NCBI GenBank assembly: GCA_947311115.1
Contig: CAMZKE010000044.1
Coordinates: 1 to 42,094 of the forward strand
Direction of reading: 5' to 3'
Length of the DNA: 42,094 bases
Source of the DNA: an uncultured Bacteroidales bacterium
Lineage (GTDB): Bacteria > Bacteroidota > Bacteroidia > Bacteroidales > JAFGXI01
Positions 8,589 through 38,583 of this stretch are shown here, piece after piece; within the stretch, counting starts at the first letter, position 1, and the number at the start of each line of letters is the position of its first letter. Under the pieces are notes generated by a model. It searched no databases. It saw only the letters and a list, made by a program, of their open reading frames with translations, and had not been told where the DNA came from. The translations under genes and the position numbers were made by a program.

Positions 8589-11147
8589 TTGATAAATAAA
8601 TATTCTATATTTCTTATCTTAGTACTGATTGTAACCACTACATTGGCTACGGAGCATAATACCTATCAAAAAACAGATTCTATAACAAAATCAAACGTAA
8701 AAAGTTATTTTTCATTAGCTGAAAAATATTTGAAAAAATCACCTGATACTGCAATAATAATTTTAAAAAAAATAATTAAAGTAACTACCAATAAGGAATT
8801 ATTGAATAACATATTTCAAAAGCTTGGGAAAGCATATTATTATAAATCTAATTATAGCAAATCAATAGATTATTATAAACGGAGTTTAAATTATTATAAA
8901 GAAACAGGAGATAAAAGTCAGGAAGCTAAATTGCTAAATTCAATAGGAAGTATATATTATACTTGGGGTATTAACGATAAAGCTTTAGAGTATTTTTTTG
9001 CATCGATAGAAATTTATAACGAACTTAACGATAAAGCATTAATTGGCTCGTTGTATAATAATGTAGGCTTATGTTATAGAGATTTAGGGAAAGACAAATT
9101 AGCTCTCGATTTTTATAGAAAATCATATAAAATAATTAAACAAAACGATTCCTTAAGTTTAGGTTTTATAGCCAATAATCTAGGTTCTGCTTATGTAAAT
9201 ATTGCAAAATACGATTCTGCAAAATATTTTTTCGATGAATCAGTAAGGATAAAAAAGAAGAATAATAACGAATTAGGTTTAGCTCATTCTTACGGCAATT
9301 TAAGCGATATGTATTTTGAATTAAAGGATTATGAAAAAGCACTTTCATATTTAAAAAAGGTACGATATATTAGTGAAAGGCATGATAATTTGGTAATTAA
9401 GGCGTTAGTTAATTCTAGTTTAGGTAGAGTTTATACAAAATTAAAAATTTACAATTTAGCCGAAGATTATTTAAATCAAGCAATGGTTTATGCAAATCAG
9501 CTTAAATCTAATCAAATTGCATTAGAAATAGCTAAAAATTTTTCTGATTTGTATATAGAAACAAAAAATTATGAAAAAGCAACATCGTATTTAAATAAAT
9601 ATATTTCAATTAAAGATAGTATTTTTTCTGAAGAAAATATAAAAAAGATTTCTGAGTTGCAAGTAGCCTACAATATGGAAAATAGCCAGAAAGAAAATGA
9701 AATGTTAAAAAAGTTAAATAAATTAAACGAACAAAAATTACATAGTTACAAAAATGTTAAACATTACTTTATTATAATATTAATTTTAATATTTTTATTA
9801 CTTATAGTTGCGTATAGTAGAGTGAAAAATAATATAAAAAACACTAAAATTATTAAAGACAAGAATAATCAGATTAAAGAAATAAATAATCAATTATTAG
9901 AAGCAAACACGCAGTTAAAAAACAAAATTGATAAACGAACTGAAGCCTTGTTTAAAGAAATTGAAGAAAGGAAAACTATTGAAAAAGAATTGCAAGTTTC
10001 GTTAGAAAAAGAACAAAAAGTAAATACATTAAAAGATAGATTTTTATCAAATATTAGTCACGAAATAAGAACACCTTTAAATGCAATATCCGGCTTAGCA
10101 TCTTTATTAAATATAAAAGTTAAGAACGAGGAGGTTTCAGAATATGTTTCAGGTATTTACCAAAACAGTAATAGATTATTAAATTTGTTAAATAACATAA
10201 TCGATTTCAGTAAAATAGAATCAAGTGAATTAAAATTAAATGTAGAAAGTATTAATTTAAATGAAATTATAAATAATGTTATACAATTATATAAGTTTAG
10301 AATTAATGAGAAGAAACTTGATTTGCTAGTTGAAATGGATGAAACATTAAAGGTTTTTGTTGATAAGGTGTATATTAGTAAAGTTTTAAATGAAATTATC
10401 GATAATGCTGTTAGATATACAAAAAAAGGTTTTGTGAAAATTTCTATTGGTAAGCTAAGTGATGCAGAGGTTTATATTAAAGTGATGGATTCTGGTATTG
10501 GTATAGAAACACAGTATTTACCACAAATTTTCGATTCGTTCACTCAAGAAAGTCAAGGTTATAAAAAGAAATTTCAAGGTGTTGGCTTAGGATTACCTTT
10601 ATCAAAAAAGTTTATTGAAATGAATAATGGGAGAATCGAAGTTTCTTCTAAAAAAGATAAAGGAACTATTGTTTCAATTGTTCTTCCTGCTGATAAAAAT
10701 TCTAAATTAACAACAAATAAAGAACATAGCATTGTTATATCTGATGCCTTATTTAAGCAAAAGGAGTTTCAAATATTCTTAATAGAAGATGACTATTTTA
10801 ACAGATTAATGCTTGAAACAATATTAGATAATATAGGTATAGTTACTTCTGCATCAGGTGGTAACGAAGCCATAGAACTAATAGATAAAAAGCATAATTC
10901 AGGCGAGGAGTTTGATATAATGATTATTGATATTAATTTACCTGATGGATGGGACGGAATAAGTTTAATGCATAAAATTAGAGAAAAATGGCCTTTATAT
11001 AAAGATGTCATTTTTATAGCTCAAACAGCTTATGCAAATACTGAAGATAAAAAACGTTTCTTAGATAATGGTTTTAACGAATACATTACCAAGCCAATTG
11101 ATAGTGATAAACTTATAAATTTAATAAAATATAGATTGATGTCTTAA
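8589..11147 (+). CDS. TPR-sensor hybrid histidine kinase with receiver domain
   Basis: The 852-residue protein has a signal peptide (about 1-20) and a periplasmic array of TPR repeats (about 75-345, with repeated Y-Y/A-Y patterns). These are followed by a membrane span (about 393-410), a coiled coil (415-480), a HisKA domain with phospho-acceptor H491 in SNISHEIRTPLNA, and a HATPase domain (N-box EIIDNAVRY 602-610; G-boxes DSGIGI 634-639 and GVGLGLP 664-670). The C-terminal receiver has D781 in IIDINLP and K835. There is no output domain, so phosphate must pass to another protein. The start is a TTG: a stop codon lies 7 bp upstream in frame, and no ATG precedes the signal peptide. The SiaB/SiaC-like genes follow 65 bp downstream. 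Confidence 0.9.
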   Translation: MINKYSIFLILVLIVTTTLATEHNTYQKTDSITKSNVKSYFSLAEKYLKKSPDTAIIILKKIIKVTTNKELLNNIFQKLGKAYYYKSNYSKSIDYYKRSLNYYKETGDKSQEAKLLNSIGSIYYTWGINDKALEYFFASIEIYNELNDKALIGSLYNNVGLCYRDLGKDKLALDFYRKSYKIIKQNDSLSLGFIANNLGSAYVNIAKYDSAKYFFDESVRIKKKNNNELGLAHSYGNLSDMYFELKDYEKALSYLKKVRYISERHDNLVIKALVNSSLGRVYTKLKIYNLAEDYLNQAMVYANQLKSNQIALEIAKNFSDLYIETKNYEKATSYLNKYISIKDSIFSEENIKKISELQVAYNMENSQKENEMLKKLNKLNEQKLHSYKNVKHYFIIILILIFLLLIVAYSRVKNNIKNTKIIKDKNNQIKEINNQLLEANTQLKNKIDKRTEALFKEIEERKTIEKELQVSLEKEQKVNTLKDRFLSNISHEIRTPLNAISGLASLLNIKVKNEEVSEYVSGIYQNSNRLLNLLNNIIDFSKIESSELKLNVESINLNEIINNVIQLYKFRINEKKLDLLVEMDETLKVFVDKVYISKVLNEIIDNAVRYTKKGFVKISIGKLSDAEVYIKVMDSGIGIETQYLPQIFDSFTQESQGYKKKFQGVGLGLPLSKKFIEMNNGRIEVSSKKDKGTIVSIVLPADKNSKLTTNKEHSIVISDALFKQKEFQIFLIEDDYFNRLMLETILDNIGIVTSASGGNEAIELIDKKHNSGEEFDIMIIDINLPDGWDGISLMHKIREKWPLYKDVIFIAQTAYANTEDKKRFLDNGFNEYITKPIDSDKLINLIKYRLMS

Positions 11148-11188
11148 TAATGTCGTTAAAATAGATTGCAAAGACTAACTATCTTTTA

Positions 11189-11196
11189 TATATTTG
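11189..11196 (+). promoter_or_regulatory. Promoter of the first SiaB-SiaC pair, -7 box
   Basis: TATATTTG matches TAnnTTTG exactly, 16 nt before the ATG at 11213. It would give a leader of about 11 nt and allow expression independent of the upstream histidine kinase. Confidence 0.5.
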
Positions 11197-11212
11197 AAGT
11201 CAATTTAATTCT

Positions 11213-11731
11213 ATGAACAAAAGCCTAAATATAGTAGATTTCTCTTTTATTGGTCATTTAAATGAGCAAAAACTTGAAGTACTACTTGTTGAAGTTAAAA
11301 GGTTTTTAGAGAATAATATAGATGATTTAAGAATTAAAAGACGTGTTTATATTGTTGCTGTAGAGGCTCTTGAGAATATCTTCAGACATACTGATAGCGA
11401 ATTACGTAAACAGAATAAAATAAAATTTTCTATTAAATTTGAAAATAATAGCTACATTTTAGAATTTGTTAATTTAGTTTTCTGTAAGAATTCTGAAAAA
11501 ATCAAAAAAATATTATTTAATATAAAAAATAAATCGAAAGAAGAAATTAAAGAATTATATAAAGCTACTATTACAAAAGCGCAAATCTCACAAAAAGGAG
11601 GTGCAGGGCTTGGACTAATTGAAATTGCAAAAATTTCAGATAATAATATTGACTATAAGTTTAAAGATATTGGTGCCGATATATGTGAATTTATTTTAGA
11701 AGTAAAATTTGACATGAAAACTATAAAGTGA
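11213..11731 (+). CDS. SiaB-family protein kinase (DUF6272-like), copy 1
   Basis: The 172-residue soluble protein has a GHKL/HATPase-like fold without a HisKA domain. An N-box-like segment EALENIFRHT (51-60) and a glycine loop KGGAGLGLIEIAK (128-140) are visible. In the Pseudomonas Sia system, SiaB is a kinase that phosphorylates SiaC, and the layout here matches. The next gene encodes a SiaC-like protein and its start overlaps this stop by one base (TGATG). A second, divergent copy lies at 35476-36015. The name SiaB is by family; substrate and output are inferred. Confidence 0.8.
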   Translation: MNKSLNIVDFSFIGHLNEQKLEVLLVEVKRFLENNIDDLRIKRRVYIVAVEALENIFRHTDSELRKQNKIKFSIKFENNSYILEFVNLVFCKNSEKIKKILFNIKNKSKEEIKELYKATITKAQISQKGGAGLGLIEIAKISDNNIDYKFKDIGADICEFILEVKFDMKTIK

Positions 11732-12153
11732 TGAGCAAAATAGTAATTGAAAAAACAGACAGGACTCCAGAAGTAATTATCGATATAGATAATGGTTTTT
11801 TTAGTATGCAGTACGATAGCAGGCCTGAAGATGTTAGGAAGTTTTATTATCCAATATTAGAAAAATTAAAATCTATTAAAGAGGAAGTTGTTCAAGCAGG
11901 TAACTTATCTTACTTTAAAGAAAAACCATTTGTGTTTACATTTAAATTAGGTTATTTTAACTCATCATCTGCAAAATTTATTTTAGATATTTTAAATATT
12001 GTTAAGTTATTTAAAGAAAGTGGAATAAATGTAGAAGTTAATTGGTATTACTTTGAAGATGAAGATGATATGAGAGAGGCTGGCGAAGATTTTTCTGAGT
12101 TTTGCGAAGTGGGATTTAATTATTTTATAATGGAAGACGACGATGACGAATAA
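11731..12153 (+). CDS. SiaC-family regulatory phosphoprotein (DUF1987-like), copy 1
   Basis: The 140-residue cytosolic protein carries the SiaC signature YFNSSSAKFILDIL (75-88), with S78 where the Pseudomonas protein has its phosphorylated threonine. A second conserved block is the acidic VNWYYFEDEDDMREAGEDF near the C-terminus. A GTG at 11728 is in frame, but the ATG at 11731 is preferred, overlapping the upstream stop by one base. It has about 10 extra residues between the N-terminal strands and the phospho-loop compared with the copy at 35084-35464. It should be the substrate of the SiaB-like kinase encoded immediately upstream. Confidence 0.82.
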   Translation: MSKIVIEKTDRTPEVIIDIDNGFFSMQYDSRPEDVRKFYYPILEKLKSIKEEVVQAGNLSYFKEKPFVFTFKLGYFNSSSAKFILDILNIVKLFKESGINVEVNWYYFEDEDDMREAGEDFSEFCEVGFNYFIMEDDDDE

Positions 12154-35083: not shown

Positions 35084-35464
35084 TTATTCTTCTATTTCAA
35101 TCATTTTGAAAGGAAGCTTAATTATTGACTGATAATCTTCGCCAGCTTCTAACATATCCTCATCATCTTCTTCGTAAAACCAGTTAACTTTAACATCGCT
35201 ACCAGCTTTCGCAATAACTTCTAATTTCTTGAATACATCAAGAATACATTTAGACGAGCTTGTATTAAAATATTCTAATTGAATATTAACCTCAGTTGTT
35301 GGTTTAGCATTTCCAGAATACTCTTCTAGCCATGCTATTAAAGGATTGTAGAACTCTATAGAGTTTTCAGGAATTGATCTTCCTTTAATTTCAACTTTTC
35401 CTGCTTCAGCATCAAATTCAATTGATGGAGTTTTTTGTGTACCATCTCTTACAATCGATTCCAT
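35084..35464 (-). CDS. SiaC-family regulatory phosphoprotein (DUF1987-like), copy 2
   Basis: The 126-residue protein is a close match to the SiaC pattern: TPSIEFDAEAGKVEIKGRSI, PENSIEFYNPLIAWLEEY, and the phospho-loop YFNTSSSKCILDVF (65-78). T68 stands at the residue number phosphorylated in Pseudomonas SiaC. The C-terminal acidic block WFYEEDDEDMLEAGEDYQ is shared with copy 1. It lies 11 bp after the SiaB-like gene and ends before a terminator. Compared with copy 1 it is shorter and closer to the classical family. Confidence 0.87.
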   Translation of the reverse strand: MESIVRDGTQKTPSIEFDAEAGKVEIKGRSIPENSIEFYNPLIAWLEEYSGNAKPTTEVNIQLEYFNTSSSKCILDVFKKLEVIAKAGSDVKVNWFYEEDDEDMLEAGEDYQSIIKLPFKMIEIEE

Positions 35465-35475
35465 ATTAATAAATT

Positions 35476-36015
35476 TTAGTTTATATTAATCATTAATTCA
35501 AAAAATATATAATCTTCATCAATCGGATAAAAATTATATTCATATTTAGAGCCTGTTTTACGGGCAATATCAATCATTCCTAATCCTCCACCACCTTTTT
35601 CTGAAAATTCTTTATTATTAAGAATCATTTTATAAAGCTGTTTCAATTCGTCTTTCGATAAAGAATTTATCTGCTCAATGCGGTCAGTTAAAAATCTTTC
35701 ATTATCACTTTGTGTATAATTACCTAAAATTAATTTAAAAGATTCTCCTACTTTTAACAGTAAAGCAGCACCAAAAACTGCACCTTGCTTATCAATATCT
35801 ACTTTACAACTATGATGAAATAAATTTTGAAGTCCTTCTACTAACGAATTATATATTTTCTTTCTTATTTTCGATGGGGTAGCAACTTCATCTAACCTAG
35901 ATTCCGAAACATCTAAAAGGTTTGTAATCAATTCAGGAGTAAATTCACCTTTGTACTCCATTATTACTTCACCTTTCCTATGAGCTGTATACCAATCGTC
36001 TATAACAAATTTCAT
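35476..36015 (-). CDS. SiaB-family protein kinase (DUF6272-like), copy 2
   Basis: The 179-residue cytosolic protein has the same GHKL-like signature as copy 1: an N-box-like LVEGLQNLFHHSC (58-70) and a glycine loop KGGGGLGMIDIARKTG (140-155). It is expected to phosphorylate the SiaC-like protein encoded 11 bp downstream. It is transcribed divergently from a TPR histidine kinase, with 153 bp between the start codons, which suggests shared control. Identity with copy 1 is limited outside the motifs, so the two pairs are old paralogues or separately acquired. Confidence 0.82.
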   Translation of the reverse strand: MKFVIDDWYTAHRKGEVIMEYKGEFTPELITNLLDVSESRLDEVATPSKIRKKIYNSLVEGLQNLFHHSCKVDIDKQGAVFGAALLLKVGESFKLILGNYTQSDNERFLTDRIEQINSLSKDELKQLYKMILNNKEFSEKGGGGLGMIDIARKTGSKYEYNFYPIDEDYIFFELMININ

Positions 36016-36168: not shown

Positions 36169-38583
36169 ATGAAAATTATCTTTTTCTTATTATTAATTAT
36201 TAGTTTATCATTATTTAGTCAAGAAAATAATTTTTTAAAAGAGTTTGATGTTTATAGGGCTAATAATAAGCAATTAAAAGAACTATCAAATTATTGTGAT
36301 AGTACTATTTTAAAAAAAGAAGGGCTTAGTAAAACCGAATTTAAGTATCTGTCAGAAATAAATAATTTTTTAAATATAGATTCAATTAATTACAGAATAC
36401 TAGTTTTAATAGCCGATTATTATTACTATAATGAAGATTTTTCAAACGCAATTAAGGTACTAAAAAAAGCTATTTCATTATCTCAAAAAAACAATTATGC
36501 ACTTTATTATCATAATATTAATAATAGTAGTGGTGTTTGTTATTATCAGTTAGGTAAATACGATTTGGCTTTAGATTATTATTATAAGGCTCTTAAATAC
36601 GACTCTGATAATAATATTATTAGAAGTAAATTTGATGTGTATCAAAATATTGGATTGTTATTCTTAAAATCTGGTGACTCTGAAAAAGCAAATTACTATT
36701 ATACAAAAGCTTACGAATTAAAAGACTCAATAAAAGATGATAATTTTATTGCCGGATTACTAATAAATATGGCGAGTATGTATAAATACTACAATTACCG
36801 GGTTGACACATCGTTAGAATATAATAAGCAAGCATTAGTATATTATAAAAGAGCCGATAATAATTTAGGAATAGCTAGTGTTTACAATAATATTGGCGAT
36901 ATTTACGAATCAGAAAATAATTATAAAAAAGCGATAGATTATTATAACAAAGCCAACGGTATTTTTTCTAAAATTAACTACAAATATGGTATATGTGTTA
37001 CATATTTTAATATAGGCTCAATATATTTTTCTCTTAAAAATTATTCAAAATCTTTAAAATATTTAAACTTAAGTTTAAACTATGCTGATAGCTTAAAAAA
37101 CATTGAAATGCAACGCAATATATATAAAAAATTATCAGATATATCTTATGTAAAATTAAATTATAAAAATGCTATTGATGAATATAAATTATATGTTCAA
37201 CTAAAAGATTCTATTTTAAATACAAAAAAACTCAAAAAGCTAAAAGATTTAGAAATAAAACACAAAAAATTACAAACAGATAAACAAATTACTAAATTAA
37301 AAGAAGCTCGTATTATTGAACAGCTCAATTTACTAAAAAAGAAAGATGAGTTATCAAAGCAACGTTATGTAATAATAATATTTATTTTATTATCAATAAT
37401 TTTATTATCGATAGTGTTTTTTGTTTTCTACAGGTATAAGAGGTTAAATAGTAATTTTATAACTAAAGAAAAAGAAATAAAGAACACACAGAATTATTTA
37501 AAAACAAGTGAAGCACGTTTTAAAATTTTATTTGAAGAATCGCCTGATGCAATTTTTGTTGAAAATTCAGAAGGAATAATTTTAGATGTAAATAATGCTA
37601 CAAGCAAGTTATACAAGAAAACAAAAGAGCAAATAATAGGAAAAAACATTAAAGATTTATCGCCAAGTATTGAGAAAGATAATATTATTACCGATTTAAA
37701 TTACTGGATAAATAGAAAGGAAAAAACATTTAGAAGCTATGCACACCTCGATAATGGCGACAAAATACCTATTGATATTAAATTTTCGGTTATTGATTTT
37801 GATGGCGAAAAAGCCGGATTATTTATTGTTAGAGACATATCAAAACAAATTGAAATTGAAGAAAAATTAAAAGCTGAGAAAATAAAATTTGTTAAAGCTG
37901 ATAGTTTAAAAAGCTTATTTTTATCTAATATCAGCCATGAAATTAGGACCCCAATGAATGCTATTATAGGGTTTTCTGACCTACTAAAAAACAATAAATT
38001 ATCTAATGATAAAATTAATTATTATTCAGAAATAATAATTAATAATAGCGAAATCCTAATAAAAAGTATTGAAGATATTATTGATGTTTCTAAACTTGAA
38101 TCAAATAGTTTATCAATTAATTATTCCAATTGCAACCCCAAAATAATGTTTAATGAAGTGTACGATAGTTATTTAACCAAGGCGAAAGTAAAAGATATAG
38201 AATTAAACTTATTAATTGATGATAACTATACTGACAAAATAATAACTGACCCATATAGGTGTAAACATATACTTGAAAACTTGCTTGGTAATGCAATAAA
38301 ATTTACTGAAGTTGGTAAAATAGATTTTGGTTATATTTTTAAAAATAATAGTATAGAAATATTTGTTAATGATACAGGAATAGGAATACCTGAAGATAAA
38401 ATGGAGTATATTTTTGACCCGTTTTATCAAATACAATATGAAAATAATTTAAATTATGGTACGGGTTTAGGTTTACCAATAATTAAAGGAATTACCGAAT
38501 TAATGGGCGGTAGAATAATAATAGATTCTAAAATTGGAGAAGGAACTAAAATTACCTGTATCTTTCCAATAAAAAAAGATTAG
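36169..38583 (+). CDS. TPR-sensor histidine kinase with PAS domain
   Basis: The 804-residue protein has a signal peptide (about 1-17, ending LSLFSQ) and a periplasmic TPR array (about 70-345, with motifs such as NNIGDIYESENNYKKAIDYY). A coiled coil, a membrane span (about 400-423), and a PAS domain (about 448-565, beginning ARFKILFEESPDAIF) follow. HisKA has H590 in SNISHEIRTPMNA, and the HATPase shows N-box LENLLGNAIKF (about 700) and G-boxes DTGIGIP and GTGLGLP. Unlike the kinase at 8589-11147 it has no receiver domain. No response regulator gene is adjacent. It is divergent from the SiaB/SiaC pair and overlaps the convergent GT87 gene by 4 bp at the stop codons. Confidence 0.92.
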   Translation: MKIIFFLLLIISLSLFSQENNFLKEFDVYRANNKQLKELSNYCDSTILKKEGLSKTEFKYLSEINNFLNIDSINYRILVLIADYYYYNEDFSNAIKVLKKAISLSQKNNYALYYHNINNSSGVCYYQLGKYDLALDYYYKALKYDSDNNIIRSKFDVYQNIGLLFLKSGDSEKANYYYTKAYELKDSIKDDNFIAGLLINMASMYKYYNYRVDTSLEYNKQALVYYKRADNNLGIASVYNNIGDIYESENNYKKAIDYYNKANGIFSKINYKYGICVTYFNIGSIYFSLKNYSKSLKYLNLSLNYADSLKNIEMQRNIYKKLSDISYVKLNYKNAIDEYKLYVQLKDSILNTKKLKKLKDLEIKHKKLQTDKQITKLKEARIIEQLNLLKKKDELSKQRYVIIIFILLSIILLSIVFFVFYRYKRLNSNFITKEKEIKNTQNYLKTSEARFKILFEESPDAIFVENSEGIILDVNNATSKLYKKTKEQIIGKNIKDLSPSIEKDNIITDLNYWINRKEKTFRSYAHLDNGDKIPIDIKFSVIDFDGEKAGLFIVRDISKQIEIEEKLKAEKIKFVKADSLKSLFLSNISHEIRTPMNAIIGFSDLLKNNKLSNDKINYYSEIIINNSEILIKSIEDIIDVSKLESNSLSINYSNCNPKIMFNEVYDSYLTKAKVKDIELNLLIDDNYTDKIITDPYRCKHILENLLGNAIKFTEVGKIDFGYIFKNNSIEIFVNDTGIGIPEDKMEYIFDPFYQIQYENNLNYGTGLGLPIIKGITELMGGRIIIDSKIGEGTKITCIFPIKKD

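Follow-up and report, generated by a model that had tools for sequence, protein, structure and literature searches.

What does a SiaB–SiaC pair control in a bacterium without a detectable diguanylate cyclase, and does a histidine kinase encoded next to it take part? In Pseudomonas, SiaB phosphorylates SiaC, the PP2C phosphatase SiaA reverses this modification, and SiaC controls the diguanylate cyclase SiaD. The question is raised by a contig of an uncultured Bacteroidales bacterium (CAMZKE010000044.1; the 42,094 nucleotides analyzed are referred to as the window), in which three successive plus-strand genes, located where an earlier note on this DNA had placed them, encode a hybrid histidine kinase with tetratricopeptide repeats (TPRs), named HK1, a SiaB-family kinase, SiaB1, and a SiaC-like phosphoprotein, SiaC1 (Table 1). 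The evidence leans, if only slightly, towards a partner-switch pair that has an output other than a diguanylate cyclase and relies on a PP2C phosphatase acting in trans, with HK1 as a lineage-specific neighbor.

SiaB1 and SiaC1 outside a SiaABCD context

SiaB1 matches Pfam family DUF6272 (E = 5e-24) and passes the NCBIfam model for SiaB-family kinases (SiaB_fam_kinase, NF038262; 87.6 bits, cut-off 85). Its top match in the PDB is SiaB (6KKO), and the alignment of the two proteins shows that the catalytic VEALEN and GGAGLGL (N-box/G-box) motifs are retained. SiaC1 exceeds the cut-off of the Pfam SiaC family (PF09345; E = 5e-30, 103.9 bits versus 24.5) and matches the SiaC structure 6K4F (E = 7.4e-10), so that the previous description of the two products as a SiaB-like kinase and a SiaC-like phosphoprotein holds. 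The phosphosite of SiaC is T68, located in the peptide LLYLNTSSIK (PMC7647112). In the alignment with 6K4F, the equivalent residue of SiaC1 is a serine within the sequence GYFNSSSAK (codon 11962-11964), leaving a phosphorylatable residue at the T68 position of the Y-x-N-T-S-S motif (YFNSSS in SiaC1). We refer to it as Ser79, a numbering that counts from a GTG at position 11728, although translation probably starts at the ATG at 11731, which is preferred because it forms a TGATG overlap with the SiaB1 stop codon. Among the SiaC paralogs of the genome, only SiaC1 has a serine at this site, with a threonine found in SiaC2 and three others, and it additionally carries an insertion of ~10 residues that is characteristic of a Ser-type subfamily.

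When compared with the SiaABCD system of Pseudomonas aeruginosa (PMC7647112, PMC8457831), the locus shares the adjacent genes for a SiaB-family GHKL kinase and SiaC in the same order, the phosphorylatable residue at the T68 position and the catalytic motifs. It differs from this system by the replacement of Thr with Ser, the insertion in SiaC1 and the presence of a TPR histidine kinase gene upstream. Moreover, neither protein reaches the cut-off of the respective equivalog model, with scores of 32.7 versus 225 for SiaB1 (biofilm kinase SiaB, NF038264) and 64.9 versus 150 for SiaC1 (biofilm phosphoprotein SiaC, NF038265). Two defining elements of SiaABCD are missing alongside the pair, namely a PP2C protein of the SiaA type and a diguanylate cyclase SiaD with its SiaC-binding stalk. 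By sequence, SiaB1 and SiaC1 are thus family members yet fall short of the equivalog models, and their locus is partner-switch-like rather than a SiaABCD system. It may resemble the HptB-HsbR-HsbA and BgrSTUWV partner switches (PMC8457831) in that a STAS-like phosphoprotein controls a signaling enzyme by binding, although the latter involve other protein families and their described outputs are diguanylate cyclases.

Profile searches of the window detected neither SpoIIE nor GGDEF genes, in agreement with the earlier note, which had reported no local SiaA or SiaD. Whole-genome counts, which rest on sequence searches only, revealed five SiaC genes and six SiaB domains in five genes, arguing against a chance match in the window. 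They also uncovered ~26 genes for SpoIIE-type PP2C proteins (29 matches, three split), none of which lies on the window contig, with contig C17 carrying the one of the SiaA type. GGDEF domains, by contrast, were absent from the genome, which is 99.25% complete, as well as from four of the five family relatives, with the same search positive in 8 of 14 control genomes. A PP2C and a GGDEF gene elsewhere in the genome had both been named as possible objections to an altered circuit, and only the former exists. Given the lack of GGDEF domains, it is well supported by the gene content that SiaC1 has a target other than a diguanylate cyclase, as previously suggested.

We therefore favor the following scheme. 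SiaB1 would phosphorylate SiaC1, most likely on Ser79, and the phosphate would be removed in trans by a SpoIIE/PP2C phosphatase, of which the genome encodes many at other loci. Unphosphorylated SiaC1 would then dock on a putative non-cyclase partner and alter its activity. HK1, in turn, would not stand in for SiaA but be a lineage-specific neighbor that is perhaps co-regulated. On a broader view, SiaC may serve as an exchangeable adaptor, which other lineages appear to join, via a helical stalk of the SiaD type, to GGDEF, histidine kinase, cyclase or PP2C domains.

A SiaD-like stalk downstream of SiaC in other lineages

A survey of 297 genomes of the phylum identified 18 SiaC carriers, including the window genome, and we inspected 26 SiaC loci outside the window family. 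A PP2C gene is found within 1.5 kb of SiaC in 19 of these loci. In 16 of them, the same strand encodes, downstream of SiaC, a protein with a common stalk of ~68 residues, within a distance of 300 bp in 15 cases and of 2 kb in the remaining one (L185). Six of the stalk proteins continue into HisKA-HATPase modules, three into GGDEF domains, two into class III cyclase domains and one into a SpoIIE domain, with four consisting of the stalk only; the fusions to histidine kinase, class III cyclase or SpoIIE domains are located at L165, L167, L168, L181, L185, L186, L180, L187 and L176. The attached domain varies even within a single family (f29), in which the stalk precedes GGDEF in genera g93 and g96 and a histidine kinase in g80. 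Consistent with a common origin of these stalks, a profile built from the GGDEF-fused versions alone recovers those fused to histidine kinases (E down to 2.5e-21), cyclases (1.6e-19) and SpoIIE (1.3e-8), and its sole match not adjoining SiaC among 1,909 proteins is an OmpA-like coiled coil (1.3e-3). When searched against 177,635 distinct PDB sequences, the stalk profile gave the SiaC–SiaD complex 7E6G as its top, albeit weak, match (E = 0.0059), followed by de novo designed coiled coils. It aligns with both SiaD repeats of this complex, and the shared motif spans SiaD residues I81, S82, D83 and Q86, which contact SiaC in the structure (PMC8457831).

A similar arrangement exists outside the phylum. 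Plasmids of Azospirillum ramasamyi and A. lipoferum show the gene order SpoIIE-SiaB-SiaC-histidine kinase-diguanylate cyclase, in which both the histidine kinase and the diguanylate cyclase start with the stalk (L232:5303-7017, L233:5303-7011); other proteobacterial plasmids have the known order SiaC-GGDEF. Since they are encoded downstream of SiaC and carry a SiaD-like stalk, the histidine kinases linked to SiaC in other families look like outputs of the switch. There is thus good sequence evidence for SiaC as an adaptor for several enzyme classes, and the stalks would be expected to bind SiaC outside Pseudomonas as well. At three loci (L172, L183 and L188), stand-alone stalk proteins of 77-99 amino acids follow a SiaC with a Ser phosphosite (YLNSSS), and two of them are in turn followed by large proteins of ~1,000-1,270 amino acids.

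The gene content, motifs, GGDEF absence, neighborhoods and stalk homology are read from the sequences themselves, and we consider it quite probable that the stalk is a portable module. A broader proposal views SiaB–SiaC as a general plug-in Ser/Thr phospho-switch: by docking on the portable helical stalk or on partners of another kind, SiaC would gate histidine kinases and PP2C phosphatases as well as class III and diguanylate cyclases, and perhaps also an ABC transporter, and in the window genus the switch would have been joined to a TPR histidine kinase. This proposal must be regarded as tentative. If correct, including the link to HK1, it would connect a Ser-phosphorylation switch to His-Asp signaling. 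Because relatives attach the SiaB–SiaC switch to kinases, cyclases and phosphatases, it gives the impression of an adaptor for general use and not of a regulator devoted to biofilms. The only published activity of SiaC that we found concerns a single enzyme class, the diguanylate cyclases; a literature search for SiaC in connection with histidine kinases, adenylate cyclases or the stalk returned nothing, and DUF1987 is scarcely mentioned in the open-access literature. The role of DUF1987 proteins in other bacteria has been raised as a question (PMC8457831). Our analysis adds the occurrence of SiaB–SiaC in up to five copies in bacteria without diguanylate cyclases and the joining of the SiaC-binding stalk to catalytic domains other than GGDEF, turning this question into directly testable pairs, such as SiaC and the stalk-histidine kinase of Azospirillum.

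Conservation and possible roles of HK1

HK1 has all elements of a hybrid histidine kinase. In support of the earlier description as a TPR kinase with a C-terminal receiver, Pfam detects TPR_12 (five stretches), HisKA, HATPase_c and Response_reg, and no output domain; the phosphoacceptor H491 (10059-10061) and the receiver residue D781 (10929-10931) are both in place. A hydrophobic signal at the N-terminus and a single transmembrane segment around residue 394, which separates the TPRs from HisKA, make a periplasmic location of the TPRs plausible. The linker between the transmembrane segment and HisKA is coiled-coil-like, and the TTG start codon recurs in the ortholog of a congeneric species. 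As given in the earlier note, the gap between HK1 and SiaB1 measures 65 bp. It contains a promoter-like element, which may allow separate transcription of SiaB1–SiaC1, although the pattern scan gave 10 loose matches over 42 kb of plus strand and the element has no counterpart in the congener, where the corresponding gap is 8 bp.

Table 1. Features of the window discussed in this study.
Feature	Position	Strand	Description	Basis
HK1	8589..11147	+	852 aa hybrid histidine kinase	Pfam, hydropathy and motifs, congener alignment
Promoter-like element	11166..11196	+	TTG-N20-TATATTTG (Bacteroidota type)	Pattern scan; weak
SiaB1	11213..11731	+	SiaB-family GHKL Ser/Thr kinase (DUF6272)	Pfam, NCBIfam NF038262, PDB 6KKO alignment
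SiaC1	11731..12153	+	SiaC/DUF1987 phosphoprotein	Pfam, PDB 6K4F alignment, tree and alignment
SiaC2	35084..35464	-	Thr-type SiaC (YFN-T-SS)	Pfam; best SiaC match in genome
SiaB2	35476..36015	-	SiaB-family kinase	Pfam; NCBIfam 131.7 bits; PDB 6KKO E = 8.5e-7
HK2	36169..38583	+	TPR-TM-PAS-HisKA-HATPase (TM, transmembrane segment), no receiver, H590 present	Pfam, motifs

The order HK1-SiaB-SiaC-FabG is retained in this one congener only, where the gaps measure 8 and 11 bp and the proteins of the row show identities of 62%, 52% and 65%. The HK1 ortholog of this species (L044:9096-11651) has intact ATP-binding motifs and a receiver Asp, but the phosphoacceptor His is changed to Gln (NISQEIRTP versus NISHEIRTP; CAC to CAA). 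Unless its assembly contains a one-base error, histidine phosphorylation would therefore not be a conserved part of the cassette. G005, a relative from another genus and the next one to carry this SiaC type, has SiaB–SiaC without a histidine kinase. Neither a histidine kinase nor SiaB–SiaC is present in the remaining four relatives at the locus of the tonB-like gene or at that of the gene for a 693-aa protein, which is the FabG neighbor in the window genus. In a wider survey, we collected Ser-type SiaC loci with the patterns PE[DN]VR[KQ]FY and YFNSSSAK and kept the best 80, a selection that biases the frequency of Ser by design and leaves the neighborhoods unselected. Only one of them, that of the congener, has a histidine kinase within 1.5 kb, and two have a PP2C gene. 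These genes, which encode the Bacteroidota group with the insertion, are often located amid housekeeping genes (RNase H, Era/Der, phosphate transporter) and often without a neighboring SiaB gene by the profile used, although the SiaB counts are lower bounds because the profile may miss divergent members. The association of TPR histidine kinases with SiaB–SiaC in relatives, which the earlier note had put up for verification, is thus limited to one congener. While other Bacteroidota TPR hybrid histidine kinases share with HK1 the TPR ectodomain, the HisKA-HATPase module and the receiver, an adjacent SiaB–SiaC pair occurs in the window genus only, as far as surveyed.

Several other readings of the locus deserve consideration. 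HK1 could replace SiaA as the input, as initially suggested, with its periplasmic TPRs sensing a signal and the kinase setting the phosphorylation state of SiaC1. Two congeneric species share the strand and the order of the genes, with short gaps in the congener, which would fit this notion, as would the fact that two of the only three TPR histidine kinases in the genome adjoin SiaB–SiaC pairs. However, no His-Asp kinase chemistry is known that removes phosphate from Ser, the phosphoacceptor His is missing from the kinase of the congener, and the arrangement is not conserved beyond the genus. Moreover, with ~26 SpoIIE/PP2C proteins at hand, one of them in a SiaA-SiaB-SiaC operon, the phosphatase need not be replaced by HK1. 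We therefore regard this role as very unlikely and as the least supported one for HK1, ranking below those of an output or a co-regulated neighbor, which are both possible. In the case of an output, unphosphorylated SiaC1 might gate HK1 by binding to its cytoplasmic coiled coil, by analogy with the stalk-histidine kinases downstream of SiaC at six Bacteroidota loci and in Azospirillum. The coiled-coil-like linker of HK1 and the receiver Asp and ATP-binding motifs kept in the congener are consistent with this idea, but HK1 lacks the stalk motif, its linker gives no match to the SiaC-binding motif even when this is relaxed, the gene order is reversed, with the kinase upstream, and the loss of the His again stands against it, making this role rather unlikely as well.

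It is quite conceivable, if short of probable, that there is no functional link at all and that the pair lies beside an unrelated histidine kinase by chance. The housekeeping surroundings of most Ser-type SiaC genes, often with no SiaB neighbor by profile, the tonB and FabG loci of other genera and the possible promoter ahead of SiaB1 point in this direction, whereas the tight order kept in the congener at the identities given above and the recurrence of the pairing with HK2 in the same window argue against it. An ordinary SiaABCD system with SiaD encoded elsewhere, by contrast, has next to no probability: SiaB1 and SiaC1 are genuine family members, but the genome-wide GGDEF search already refutes it, save for a gene in the missing ~1% of the genome. 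The reading that we prefer, a partner switch with a non-cyclase output and HK1 as a neighbor, also faces objections. The adjacency of two of the three TPR histidine kinases to SiaB–SiaC pairs has a chance probability of ~4e-5, or of ~4e-3 if all 25 HisKA kinases of the genome are counted (two of 25), and these low values, which are rough, post hoc figures based on 10 flanking slots among an estimated ~2,900 genes, hint at a real link to the kinase. In addition, no stalk-bearing protein was found in the window genome, nor in eight Ser-type genomes tested, so that the stalk precedent does not point to a partner of SiaC1. The single stalk match in the window genome (C51, E = 0.0099) comes from an OmpA-like protein with a coiled coil and was dismissed as a false positive.

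Further SiaB and SiaC genes

The window contains a second SiaC/SiaB pair (35084-36015, minus strand), overlooked in the earlier note, which is arranged head to head with the gene for another TPR histidine kinase, HK2, the two start codons lying 153 bp apart. Like the first pair, its products stay below the equivalog cut-offs (SiaC2, 103.3 versus 150 for NF038265; SiaB2, 53.6 versus 225 for NF038264), and close relatives of SiaC2 have no adjoining histidine kinase.

A canonical SiaA-SiaB-SiaC order is found on contig C17 of the window genome, where the PP2C, SiaB and SiaC genes are followed by a gene encoding TerB, ABC ATPase and ABC2 membrane domains. This order is kept in five family genomes and three genomes of family f10, with the contig of G001 ending inside the ABC gene. 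Upstream, the conserved order extends to CheB-like and GAF genes in Bacteroidia (L041:8289-17128, L046, L052, L055, L177-L179), and the window genome has an additional CheR gene. While it shares with the window locus the protein families, the genome and the SiaB–SiaC order, this operon (C17; families f1 and f10) differs by its upstream PAS/GAF PP2C, its downstream transporter and its Thr-type SiaC. The TerB-ABC transporter is a candidate SiaC target. A segment of the protein from the window genome (KLTSVGDS) resembles the SiaC-binding sequence KITRIGDS; we did not make use of this resemblance, given that the G, the D or both vary between orthologs (VNDS, VKDS, VKES) and that the segment is absent in L171.

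SiaB and SiaC also occur in duplicated and fused forms. A protein of ~370 amino acids is encoded beside a SiaC gene at L043:10206-11330, L048:2295-3422 and L059:2672-3781; that of the window genome carries two tandem SiaB domains, and the glycines of the GGAGLG motif are no longer present in the second copy at L043 (DDSKKAGLGI). Other loci encode a SiaB–SiaC fusion (L154:2625-3533), a PP2C–SiaB fusion (L182:8162-10039) and three tandem SiaC genes (L129:1241-2530).

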